From: Trichococcus shcherbakoviae
Lineage (GTDB): Bacteria > Bacillota > Bacilli > Lactobacillales > Aerococcaceae
Direction: 5' to 3'
DNA: 64,000 nt
Assembly: GCF_963666195.1 (NCBI RefSeq)
Contig: NZ_OY762653.1
Location: forward strand, 1,893,501-1,957,500
Positions 2,849 to 59,829 of this stretch are shown piece after piece. Position 1 is the stretch's first letter. Every line of letters starts with the position of its first letter. A program made the translations under genes and the position numbers. A model generated the notes under the pieces. That model worked only from the letters and a program-made list of their open reading frames with translations, had not been told where the DNA came from and ran no database searches.

Positions 2849-2948
2849 GCGCTTAAACATGGATACTTGGCCGTTATCCATGTTTTACCCCATGCATAAC
2901 CAACCCGCTGTTCGCTTTTCCCTGTCAATCCTGTTCGGAATCGTGTGC

Positions 2949-2977
2949 TTTTCAGGCCGTGGCTGCGGTGGTAGACT
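2949..2977 (+). promoter_or_regulatory. candidate promoter for the T-box transcript
   Basis: TTTTCA (2949-2954) and TAGACT (2972-2977) are 17 bp apart, about 40 bp upstream of the T-box stem I. Each hexamer matches the sigma-A consensus at four positions. The preceding stretch 2850-2948 shows no gene. Confidence 0.4.
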
Positions 2978-2999
2978 TTGTCTATCAAATAAAAGCCAT

Positions 3000-3290
3000 A
3001 CAGAAAAAAGCAAAGAAGAGGAAAGTACTGGTTGGATAGTCCTTCAGAGAGCTCTTGGTCGGTGGAAAAGAGTGGACGGCAGCACAGGAAAAATGGCCTC
3101 GGAGTTGATGCGTTGACAGGGGTTTTCCTGCAGACGTATCCGGACGCCCCCGTTAGACAGGCAACGGTATCGAGCGCAGCAAAAGGCTCTGTACCGGTTG
3201 AGGCGGAAAGCGCAAGCTTTTCGCGAAAAAAGGTGGAACCACGATCTAACAGTCGTCCTTTCTGGAACAATCCAGGAAGGGCGGCTTTTT
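3000..3290 (+). ncRNA. T-box riboswitch leader (tRNA-sensing)
   Basis: The T-box sequence AAGGTGGAACCACG is at 3230-3243. It is followed by a terminator in which GTCGTCCTTTCTGGA (3252-3266) pairs with TCCAGGAAGGGCGGC and ends in a T tract. Upstream lies a recognisable stem I: AGTA loop-E strand at 3024-3027, AGAGAG distal bulge at 3046-3051, GGTCGGTGGAA apical part, and GAGG (3018-3021) pairing with CCTC (3097-3100). The specifier strand reads GGAAAAATGGCC (3087-3098). The codon is uncertain: AAT by loop-E spacing, ATG by distance to the closing stem, or GGC. The variable T-box base is A (TGG-A-ACC), which would pair with a tRNA whose discriminator is U, as in bacterial tRNA-Gly and tRNA-Cys. 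Uncharged tRNA would allow read-through into the gene cluster starting at 3316. Confidence 0.9.
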
Positions 3291-50897: not shown

Positions 50898-50946
50898 AAA
50901 AAAATCCCATCAGGCCTTGTTTGGCAGGCTGATGGGATTTTTTCAT
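50898..50946 (+). terminator. rho-independent terminator after the MerR gene
   Basis: AAAATCCCATCA pairs with TGATGGGATTTT around GCC/GGC, followed by T6. Confidence 0.88.
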
Positions 50947-51146
50947 AATATATAATATTTTGAATCCGAAAGTGCGTCACCGTAGTTGTTTAATAGATTC
51001 GCAAAATGTTTCATGCAATCAAGTTAGATGGCTAGCTTCACGGGTAAGCCCTTCGGAAATTAGATAAATCGAGCCTATTGCGCTCTATGATGCTCAGTCG
51101 GCTCGATTTCCTAAATTTCTTTCAGGGCTGAATGAACCCGTTCCGC
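50946..51146. ncRNA. dispersed structured element, copy 1 (putative non-coding RNA or repeat)
   Basis: About 200 bp alike to 55078-55280. Conserved blocks include AAGTGCGTCACCGTAG (50970-50985), GGCTAGC (51030-51036), GGAAATTAGATAAAT (51055-51069) and ATTTCCTAAATTTC (51106-51119). Three helices form a 102-base hairpin: ACGGGT (51040) with ACCCGT (51136), AGCCCT (51047) with AGGGCT (51124), and CGAGCC (51070) with GGCTCG (51100). The same helices exist in copy 2 with different bases. It lies between the MerR gene and the convergent OsmC gene. Strand of transcription is not known. Confidence 0.75.
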
Positions 51147-51159
51147 ATTTCTGATTTTT

Positions 51160-51615
51160 TTAATTGGTCCGGATCCACTGGGTTGACATGTCGACGCCCG
51201 CATCCAGCATGAGGTTGTAAACGGGGCATCTTCTTTCGACTTCAGCCGCCAGTTTCTCGATGGCTTCGTCGGTCTCATCGGTCTCGATATGGTTGATGAG
51301 CGTGACTTCCTGGAAGTAGGTCCGGATATCATCTTCCCCGGCAAAACCGCGCGGATCAAAGGTGCCTTCGACGGTAAACGTCAGACCTCTGTAAGAGAGC
51401 CCTTGTTGTTCGGCTACATAATAGGCAATGATCGAGGTGCAGCCTGCCAGCGAACTTAAAAGATATTCCAACGGATTCGGCCCTTTGTTGTCGCCGCCCA
51501 TCCGTTCCGATTCGTCTACGAAAAATTCAGGCAGGTTACGGACCTTCACCGTAGTGGTGATGCCTTGGTGTGATTGGCCAGTGATCCTCAATTTCGATAA
51601 TTTTGTTTCTGTCAT
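51160..51615 (-). CDS. OsmC/Ohr-family peroxiredoxin-like protein
   Basis: 151 residues. The family's two redox cysteines are visible in YLLSSLAGCTSI (about residue 54) and EVERRCPVYNLM (about residue 134), with GPNPLEYLLSSLAGC as the usual helix. It probably reduces organic or fatty-acid hydroperoxides with thiols or lipoyl groups. It belongs to the YhfA/OsmC-like branch by its DETDEAIEKLAAEVERRCPVYN ending. It is a single gene; the RNA-like element copy 1 lies just past its stop. Confidence 0.88.
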   Translation of the reverse strand: MTETKLSKLRITGQSHQGITTTVKVRNLPEFFVDESERMGGDNKGPNPLEYLLSSLAGCTSIIAYYVAEQQGLSYRGLTFTVEGTFDPRGFAGEDDIRTYFQEVTLINHIETDETDEAIEKLAAEVERRCPVYNLMLDAGVDMSTQWIRTN

Positions 51616-55035: not shown

Positions 55036-55066
55036 AAAAGCTCAGATCAAGGCTGAGCTTTTTTCT
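55036..55066 (+). terminator. rho-independent terminator after the FabK-like gene
   Basis: AAAAGCTCAG pairs with CTGAGCTTTT with AGATCAAGG loop, then T run. It suggests part of transcription stops before the CoA-transferase gene. Confidence 0.85.
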
Positions 55067-55077
55067 TAAATATTAGG

Positions 55078-55280
55078 AAATATAAAATATTTTCAATATA
55101 AAAGTGCATCACCGTAGGTGTTTCACGGATTTTTAAAATGTTTTATGCATCTAAAATAATGGCTAGCGGACCAAGCCTGCCTCTCGGAAATTAGATAAAT
55201 CTGACCCATTGCGCTCTACGATGCTCATTCGGGGCCAGATTTCCTAAATTTCTTTCGAGGCAGAGCGGGCTTGTACCGCT
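55078..55280. ncRNA. dispersed structured element, copy 2 (putative non-coding RNA or leader)
   Basis: Like copy 1 at 50946-51146. Conserved blocks are AAGTGCATCACCGTAG (55102-55117), GGCTAGC (55161-55167), GGAAATTAGATAAAT (55186-55200) and ATTTCCTAAATTTC (55239-55252). Helices differ in sequence from copy 1 yet pair: CAAGCC (55172) with GGCTTG (55268), TGCCTC (55178) with GAGGCA (55257), and CTGACC (55201) with GGCCAG (55233, one mismatch). The hairpin spans 102 bases as in copy 1. It ends about 50 bp before the CoA-transferase start, between a terminator and that gene, so it could be its leader. Confidence 0.75.
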
Positions 55281-55328
55281 TTTCTTACTTATTTATGTGA
55301 ATGAACGAGCAAATAGGAGGGTACACTT

Positions 55329-58154: not shown

Positions 58155-59829
58155 CCTGAATTATTCATACCACCCCAAATCTTGATATGAACAACTCTAT
58201 TTCATCTGCAATATTGGATTTTTGGCAGAGCTGTTATTTTTTCCCTTTCAAAACGTCTCTTAGAGACGAAAAGAAGCACAGAATGCGATTGTTATTGTGT
58301 TTTTGGGCATACTAATCCCTTTGTTCGAACGATTTTTTTAAATTTACGGGGTCTCCTCACCAAGACAAGGATTGAATTTGCCGTAGGATATGAAAAAATT
58401 CATCTTGGTAGACATGATGGGTGCTGAGTTTTAGCATCATGCGTCTTCCGCTGTGGATCAGTTTCCCAGCGATCTTGAAAAACCGAAGACGAATACTTTG
58501 TATCTGTAGGCCTCTGGCCTTTTCCGGGAAAGTTAGTGTGCGTATGAAATTGTTGATGTTATAGGAAAGGACGCTGACCATCATGCGGACGGCATTCTCC
58601 AAGAAATGAGAACTGTCTGTCTTGTCGAAGAAGAAGCCATTCTTGGCTTCCTTGATGAAATTCTCCATCGTACCTCTCTTCCAATACGTTTGATAGATTT
58701 GTTCAGCCGAGACGGCATTGGATAGATTGGTGATAATGAATTCATGGTGAAAAATCAGTTCATTAGCTGCCCTGACGGAACGAATACAAACCCTACGGTC
58801 ATGCTTCCAAGTGCCGGCTTGATAGCGAGTCGAGTAGAAATGTTCTTCCCGCTGACTCCATTCGGTCTCATCCCCAACTTGAACAAACTCTTCCGCTATC
58901 TTGAATAAGCAGAGATTTCGTTTGAGCCGAATGACGTACTGATGCTCTTTTTCTTCACAGAGGTCATACAGTTCCGGTGCGGCAAAGCCACTATCTGCGC
59001 GAACAAGAATGGTGCTGACCGGAACAGTCTGATTATAATGCTCAAGAAGCGGATTCAAAAAATCGGCTGCTCCGTTTGAGCAGTATGTGTTTCCGGAACG
59101 CAGTTCCGCCTTCAGAAAGTCCTTGGTCAGACCATCGAATGCGACAAGCGGATGATAACCAATCGTTTGATAATGTGCATTGAAAGCCGCTTCTTCTTGA
59201 TCGCCGTAGGTGTCACAATAGGTGGAATCCAAATCCAATACCATTTCTGTTGCATTACGTTGTATGCGTACCTTATCCAGCATTGCTTGATTGAGCGCTT
59301 GTAGCTGCAAAAGTGCATCGGGACTCTCACTAATGCGATCCCAAAAACGCGAAAGCGAAGGTTGTGCAGCCAATGTACTTTTTTCAAGCATCTGTTGGAA
59401 GAAAGGATCATGGCGTAAGATGTTGGCAGATGCATCGGTATCATAGCCTGCAATTAATTGGAAAATCAGTTGTTCAAGGATGGATTCATTCGAATGTGTA
59501 GGTGAAAGACGGGAGTCTTGAAATTGGAGCTCATTCTCCATCAACTGTTCGAATCCGATTGAATGAAGGAATTCTTTAACCAAAACGAGACCAGCATCCG
59601 TGGTCAGATTACCTCCAGTATTTGTAACCGTCATTTTTGCATTGAATTTTAGAGTGTTTTCATGTAAAGTTGCCATTGAGAGAACCCCTTTCTATGGTTG
59701 TTGGTGGTACATTAACCATAACAGATAGGGGTTCTTTTTTCACACCTTTTGGGTGTGAACTGGAAAGACAAAATATGTTGGAAGACTAACGTTTCCAGAC
59801 GTTTTGTGAAAATCTATGAATAATTCAGG
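58155..59829 (-). mobile_element. IS1380-family insertion sequence, complete (1675 bp)
   Basis: Fifteen-base terminal inverted repeats CCTGAATTATTCATA lie at 58155-58169 and, as the reverse complement, at 59815-59829. AAAA stands directly outside both ends, fitting the 4-bp target duplication of this family, though inside an A-rich site. One full-length transposase gene lies on the minus strand. Upstream of that gene, inside the element, a hairpin (AGAACCCC with GGGGTTCT, 59690-59738) would stop incoming transcription. Bases 58170-58356 hold no gene. Confidence 0.92.
58357..59676 (-). CDS. IS1380-family transposase
   Basis: 439 residues, intact. The N-terminal part (VTNTGGNLTTDAGLVLVKEFL) is the usual IS1380 opening. 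The DDE catalytic residues fall in EMVLDLDSTYCD, VRADSGFAA and the glutamate of RGTMENFIKEAKNG. VIRLKRN follows the second Asp as in relatives. It cuts and moves the element bounded by the repeats at 58155 and 59829. No frameshift is seen, so the element may be active. Its codon use is poorer in G and C than the neighbouring genes. Confidence 0.95.
   Translation of the reverse strand: MATLHENTLKFNAKMTVTNTGGNLTTDAGLVLVKEFLHSIGFEQLMENELQFQDSRLSPTHSNESILEQLIFQLIAGYDTDASANILRHDPFFQQMLEKSTLAAQPSLSRFWDRISESPDALLQLQALNQAMLDKVRIQRNATEMVLDLDSTYCDTYGDQEEAAFNAHYQTIGYHPLVAFDGLTKDFLKAELRSGNTYCSNGAADFLNPLLEHYNQTVPVSTILVRADSGFAAPELYDLCEEKEHQYVIRLKRNLCLFKIAEEFVQVGDETEWSQREEHFYSTRYQAGTWKHDRRVCIRSVRAANELIFHHEFIITNLSNAVSAEQIYQTYWKRGTMENFIKEAKNGFFFDKTDSSHFLENAVRMMVSVLSYNINNFIRTLTFPEKARGLQIQSIRLRFFKIAGKLIHSGRRMMLKLSTHHVYQDEFFHILRQIQSLSW

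Follow-up and report, generated by a model that had tools for sequence, protein, structure and literature searches.

The EFAR repeats of Enterococcus faecalis, the subject of a 2007 paper, are reportedly assembled from variable sequence modules, range from 42 to 650 bp and take stem-loops as insertion targets, most of the target stem-loop being deleted, it is said, upon insertion. The REP/RAYT system combines a 20–40 bp palindrome tagged GTAG or CGTC with a Y1 transposase. EFAR is counted among the enterococcal MITEs (PMC3733652), and the Efa-1 repeat of E. faecalis is described as a structured sequence of 163 bp with a pair of adjacent stem-loops, present in 65 copies, 18 of them complete by our reading of the table (PMC2267715). 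Efa-1 and EFAR are probably the same repeat. The BOX element of Streptococcus pneumoniae is modular, with variable boxB copies, structured and 67–637 bp long; streptococci beyond pneumococcus and S. mitis are described as almost wholly lacking BOX, related elements being present in S. suis (PMC3049150). The same paper presents the SPRITE repeat of S. pneumoniae as a terminator-like stem with a U-rich tract after it, found preferentially between convergent genes (PMC3049150). Intrinsic terminators are also described as the insertion sites of group IIC introns, a class of reverse transcriptase (RT) elements (PMC4424553).

The window analysed here, a stretch of 64,000 nucleotides from a Trichococcus genome, carries two copies of a palindromic element that align over about 200 bp, a similarity already noticed in the original prediction. 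Copy 1 (50944..51153, + strand, about 210 bp) was delimited from filled and empty sites in congeners, and the covariance model matches it at 51028-51153 with 143.7 bits. Its target, recognised in the sequence, is a terminator-like hairpin, ATCCCATCAG..CTGATGGGAT, with a T-tract at 50938-50943 (together 50904..50943, + strand); it sits 3' of a MerR-like gene (named by eye), and its counterpart is present without the element in genomes G005 and G006. The AT-rich 5' domain of copy 1 (50944..51029, + strand) is conserved in sequence, whereas RNAalifold on an alignment of 24 copies gave 5 pairs over these approximately 85 nt, 0 of them with a double change, so that its structure is unsupported and the stretch AAGTGC.TCACCGTAG is conserved in sequence only. 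The core hairpin (51034..51147, + strand), defined by sequence, fold and covariation, has a conserved internal loop, TTAGATAAAT/ATTTCCTAA. Its helices, all given on the + strand, are ACGGGT 51040-51045 with ACCCGT 51136-51141 (helix 1), AGCCCT 51047-51052 with AGGGCT 51124-51129 (helix 2) and CGAGCC 51070-51075 with GGCTCG 51100-51105 (helix 3). The hairpin of 102 bases predicted earlier is formed by both copies (51040-51141 in copy 1), and the three helices said to differ between the copies while retaining their pairing all lie where they had been placed, with the expected substitutes in copy 2. The T-tract on the right flank of copy 1 (ATTTTTTT, 51154..51161, + strand) is read as a second copy of the target T-tract.

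Copy 2 (55069..55287, + strand) is a 219-bp insert that includes TTTTCTTA, which repeats the left flank; the same flanks lie 440 nt apart in the filled site and 221 nt apart in the empty one. The covariance-model match spans 55159-55286 with 139.2 bits. The target of this copy, also read from the sequence, is the terminator-like hairpin AAGCTCAG..CTGAGCTT with its T-tract (55038..55064, + strand), 3' of a nitronate-monooxygenase-like gene (named by eye), and hairpin and T-tract occur without the element in G298, G003, G005, G004, G001 and G006. About 3 kb from copy 2 there is a transposase-like ORF of 439 aa (58357-59676, - strand), IS1380-like by eye.

Inside the window the description as a two-copy element holds, the covariance model finding no third good match there, but it fails for the genome as a whole (2.93 Mb, one contig), where 54 blast pieces resolve into at least 40 loci; this figure is a lower bound because 40 of 56 first-look candidates were scored. 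The copies are about 120–336 bp long. While 28 of the 40 are free of inserts, 12 carry one or two extra hairpin modules at fixed places: module A (~75 nt), in the left strand, in 7 copies; module B (~65 nt) in another 8 instances, where it follows GATGCTCA; and module C (~75 nt), in the right strand, in 2. In the fold of copy L033, modules B and C each make their own hairpin. The usual 5' domain is missing from 14 of the 40 copies, as classed by eye. According to crude ORF calls the copies are intergenic, 15 lying between convergent genes and 5 between divergent ones; the neighbours both lie on the opposite strand for 12 copies and on the same one for 6, and 2 are unclear. Replication-strand bias is not strong, 25 of 40 copies reading with the leading strand when the terminus is placed by skew. 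At locus L036 (about 2390-2594), the copy comes directly after a second copy of its 3' end that shares its small deletion, an arrangement as in partial tandem duplication.

In order to read insertion sites, the 5.4-kb stretch with both window copies was compared with 12 congeners, junctions being taken where both flanks lay on one locus; this covered all congeners except G010 and G007 for copy 2, and all except G009 and G007 for copy 1. Among these genomes copy 2 occurs in G011; it is missing from G298, G003, G005, G004, G001, G008, G006, G002 and G009. Copy 1 is absent in G298, G003, G005, G001, G006 and G010, while G008 and G002 have a different, longer interval in its place. It does occur in G011, where it carries modules A and B, and in G004, where it carries A and C, so one locus can differ in its extra modules from congener to congener. 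For 12 further copies the flanks were then searched in six relatives and 20 of the relatives' loci compared; empty sites were found for 9 of the 12 (L002, L016, L018, L019, L026, L030, L034, L037 and L044), while L282 had no readable junction. G298 belongs to the same species by label, and even from this genome the insertions differ at 5 of 11 sites (both window copies, L002, L018 and L030, all empty in G298); at L016, L019, L026, L034 and L037 the flanks in G298 are spaced apart as at a filled site. The element is thus multi-copy, dispersed and mobile, with insertions that vary between congeners, and the reading of the two window copies as a two-copy non-coding RNA gives way to that of a dispersed mobile repeat.

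At all 11 sites read, insertion took place inside a T-tract or no more than about 7 nt past it, and the orientation is fixed: the GCTTTTC end of the element shares the orientation of the T-tract it was inserted at (11/11). A terminator-like hairpin precedes the T-tract and stands intact to the left of the insert at 9 of the 11 sites, weakly so at L018, and L030 and L034 have a T-tract without a preceding hairpin. By one simple criterion, which misses window copy 1, such a hairpin lies upstream of 24 of the genome's 40 copies; for control windows taken at these loci the figure is 57 of 760. The clearest target duplication is at L026, with GCTTTT on both sides, where the empty site reads ...CGGATGCTTTTCCTATTGG... 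and the filled site ...CGGATGCTTTT|TAAATATT...TACC|GCTTTTCCTATTGG...; at copy 1, ATTTTTT stands on either side of the insert, and L018 and L019 have little or no duplication. The extent of duplication is unfixed at most sites because the end of the element and the target share TTTTC. Insertion thus occurs within T-tracts or immediately past them, in most cases where a terminator-like hairpin stands upstream, and in one orientation.

Pairing in the core hairpin is preserved by more than the decay of a repeat would give, as had been proposed from the two window copies. The 28 insert-free copies have 98.1% of their cells paired and double changes at 15 of 35 pairs; the covariation score is 0.249, compared with 0.097 in shuffles, and 0/500 shuffles reach it. 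The count of further pair types in these copies is not above shuffles (478/500 as high). A wider alignment of 33 copies from several genera, namely the two window copies and 31 chosen among 85 matches with second array units, other-strand echoes, streptococcal matches and weak matches left out, has double changes at 20 of 25 pairs and a score of 0.576, compared with 0.182 in shuffles (0/500) and at most 0.138 in slid controls. The copies are related, and the double changes counted are accordingly not independent events. In this alignment AGATAAA/TTTCCTA and AGC..GCTTTT are nearly constant and the remaining helices vary. The covariation suggested by two copies thus extends to the further copies. 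The two window copies also fold stably as RNA, with z-scores of -5.0 and -4.4 and 0/200 shuffles as good for each, and the core of copy 1 folded as DNA is better than 199 of 200 shuffles.

The kinds of change within the helices bear on whether RNA or DNA is the paired molecule. Of the cells in alignment A2, 957 are Watson-Crick and 2 each are G·U and A·C, with one-sided changes almost absent (2, against 84 double-changed cells); alignment A5 has 774 Watson-Crick cells beside 11 with G·U and 6 with A·C. The 140 distinct copies derived from the best 150 of 167 model matches, aligned by fitting to the model, hold 4361 Watson-Crick pairs; of the remainder, G·U accounts for 55, A·C for 37 and other mismatches for 170. 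The stems of 36 tRNAs from the same loci, a small control registered by best offset and hence biased towards pairing, comprise 393 Watson-Crick pairs, with G·U at 37 positions and A·C at 2, so that the G·U share is 1.2% in the element and 8.6% in tRNA. Since a G·U on one strand is an A·C on the other, nearly equal counts show no great preference for either strand; G·U is still ahead, 55 to 37 (binomial p 0.08). This pattern favours DNA-level pairing, or template-switch correction, over selection on RNA. The original prediction had allowed for RNA or cruciform structure, and the cruciform is the better half of that proposal.

A covariance model built from the copies of this genome, whose E-values are rough, was used to follow the element in other genomes. 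All 12 genomes of the genus that were searched have matches, as does the same-species genome G298. At the level of the order there are matches in 81 of 295 genomes and 19 of 75 genera, and at that of the class in 32 of 299 genomes, 22 of these in other orders of Bacilli, with a best score of 60.6 bits; weak matches may be missed at both levels because stricter filters were used. The Enterococcus genus that holds E. plantarum and E. ureilyticus has matches in 22 of 22 genomes, with 2 to 129 in each. Tandem arrays with a period of about 119–124 bp (unit ~122 bp) are common in many genomes; one contig from another order (L335, 152-1019) has seven head-to-tail, nearly identical 124-bp units. Copies from other orders keep the nested helices and mostly the ends TTGTCYAGC..CCGCTTTTCTT, and the AGATAAA loop is absent from them. 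The strict loop pattern is found mainly in records named Enterococcus, Streptococcus and Lactococcus, among the 80 matches listed of at least 120; one match in a Woesebacteria MAG is not an element. Streptococcal relatives have different ends, and four genomes of genus g24, probably Streptococcus, have 2, 3, 2 and 19 matches. Streptococcal-type relatives stand directly before carB- and dnaJ-like starts in L103, L104, L105 and L132, as seen by eye. These relatives, apparently within operons, may be a domesticated branch.

Neither of the enzymes considered as mobiliser tracks the element: among 16 element-bearing genomes, 10 have an RT match and 9 a Y1 transposase match, and among 14 element-free genomes the figure is 5 for each. 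Six element-bearing genomes (G005, G019, G160, G271, G054 and G100) have no RT match at E 1e-5. Blastn gave no match in plasmid records for the window element or for two copies from other orders, none in plasmid and phage records for Enterococcus copies, and no near match among phages for part of a contig from a viral collection in which the loop pattern occurs. As the original prediction anticipated, the element falls into no known RNA class: Rfam 15 has no family over any element at gathering score, and relaxed scans gave sub-threshold matches only. Rfam matches to Ref70, PyrR and T-box lie elsewhere. The window itself has a T-box leader (RF00230) at 3004-3263 with 115.9 bits, and Ref70 (Enterococcus sRNA 70) is found in L196 at 2896-3018 (- strand), about 1.1 kb from a repeat array; the covariance model does not match Ref70 there. 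Inspection by eye for the boxes of integron attC sites found none. A limited literature search for Trichococcus repeats, Enterococcus interspersed repeats and pieces of the repeat sequence returned no description of the window's repeat.

We consider that the element is a non-autonomous mobile palindromic element, an EFAR-like miniature element, and put the probability of this reading at roughly 0.6. A trans-acting enzyme would recognise the core hairpin as single-stranded or extruded DNA and join it to T-tracts, with the AGATAAA/TTTCCTA internal loop and the CTAGC..GCTTTT ends as likely recognition features. Because the core ends in a stem and T-tract, an inserted copy may restore an end resembling a terminator and thus be close to neutral for the genes beside it. 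The coordinated Watson-Crick changes would then come from two sources, the requirement that the element fold as DNA and template-switch correction of one arm by the other. Correction might even act without any selection on pairing, since replication template switching, a mechanism that has been described (PMC8794818), copies one arm into the other in any long quasi-palindrome, and the large excess of double over one-sided changes in A2 is what it would leave. We regard this as possible, yet doubtful as the whole account: the AGATAAA/TTTCCTA loop and the unpaired stretch after the inner helix remain asymmetric across genera. Under pure correction they would be lost; selection therefore acts on these asymmetric parts at least, which argues that correction alone is insufficient. 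It is very unlikely that the copies are ordinary intrinsic terminators spread by recombination, as their core of stem and terminal TTTTC might suggest, given that a hairpin is already present upstream at 9 of 11 read sites and that the window copies add 210–219 bp including the conserved 5' domain, and other copies add modules.

Two further explanations place the function of the hairpin in RNA. A functional non-coding RNA or RNA regulatory element, duplicated by chance, would account for the strong covariation, the stable RNA fold, the conserved motifs AGATAAA/TTTCCTA (in some genera also ATTGCGCTC..GATGCTCA) and the position of some streptococcal relatives just before genes, apparently within operons (by eye). 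We think it improbable, for the same site is filled or empty depending on the relative, matches vary from 2 to 129 per genome in one genus, an informal look at the copies of this genome noticed no shared neighbour gene, and G·U is not much commoner than A·C. Spread through RNA in the manner of a SINE is an improbable route as well. Here the transcript would end at its own U-tract, with the hairpin needed as RNA, and the RNA 3' end would pair with the A-strand of another T-tract, where RT would copy it in. The T-tract targets, fixed orientation, constant 3' end and variable 5' extent (with 14 of 40 copies, by eye, lacking the usual 5' domain) all agree with such a step, and the RT-encoding group IIC introns are likewise described as inserting at terminators (PMC4424553), but the six genomes without an RT match, the rarity of G·U pairs for an RNA constraint and the lack of matches at gathering score to introns or any other known RNA speak against it. 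What the original prediction observed is confirmed, and its interpretation is partly supported.

For RNA discovery there is a caution here, in that the covariation of this family would pass the usual test for a structured RNA and yet the balance of G·U and A·C points to DNA. The set of filled and empty sites provides material for resolving terminator-targeted transposition without a known enzyme. On a broader and more tentative reading, the copies would belong to Bacilli-wide mobile DNA hairpins with a near-constant unit of ~122 bp and an undescribed mechanism aimed at the T-tracts of terminators, which rebuild a terminator, gain modules, form arrays and stay self-complementary as DNA, their covariation resembling that of an RNA gene and being misleading in this respect.

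Among described systems, BOX is like the element in being a modular structured repeat, by description and not by sequence. SPRITE resembles the element in its terminator-like stem with a U-rich tract and is set apart from it, again by description, by its AT-rich 18-bp duplex and by the passages on it, which mention no modules (PMC3049150). Group IIC introns share the preference for terminators (PMC4424553). They differ in that the element has no intron RNA match in Rfam, at gathering score or in relaxed scans, and that 6 of 16 element-bearing genomes have no RT match. Membership in REP/RAYT was rejected on the element's length of about 120–336 bp and on the Y1 transposase not tracking it. The nearest known system is EFAR/Efa-1, a comparison made by description, no E. 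faecalis sequence having been recognised among the genomes searched. Like EFAR/Efa-1, the element is a dispersed intergenic palindromic repeat in tens of copies (at least 40), and its length varies through a set of modules, A, B and C, as that of EFAR reportedly does. Efa-1 has two adjacent stem-loops; in the element the core hairpin is strong, and the 5' domain has 5 pairs and no double change, so that a second hairpin is not supported. The target stem that EFAR is said to delete for the most part is here intact on the left at 9 of 11 sites, the other 2 having a T-tract only; for this reason, and because the comparison is one of description and not of E. faecalis sequence, we do not class the element as EFAR. 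By analogy it probably works like an EFAR-type repeat, and the distribution described above suggests that the EFAR repeats of E. faecalis may be a local case of a Bacilli-wide family.
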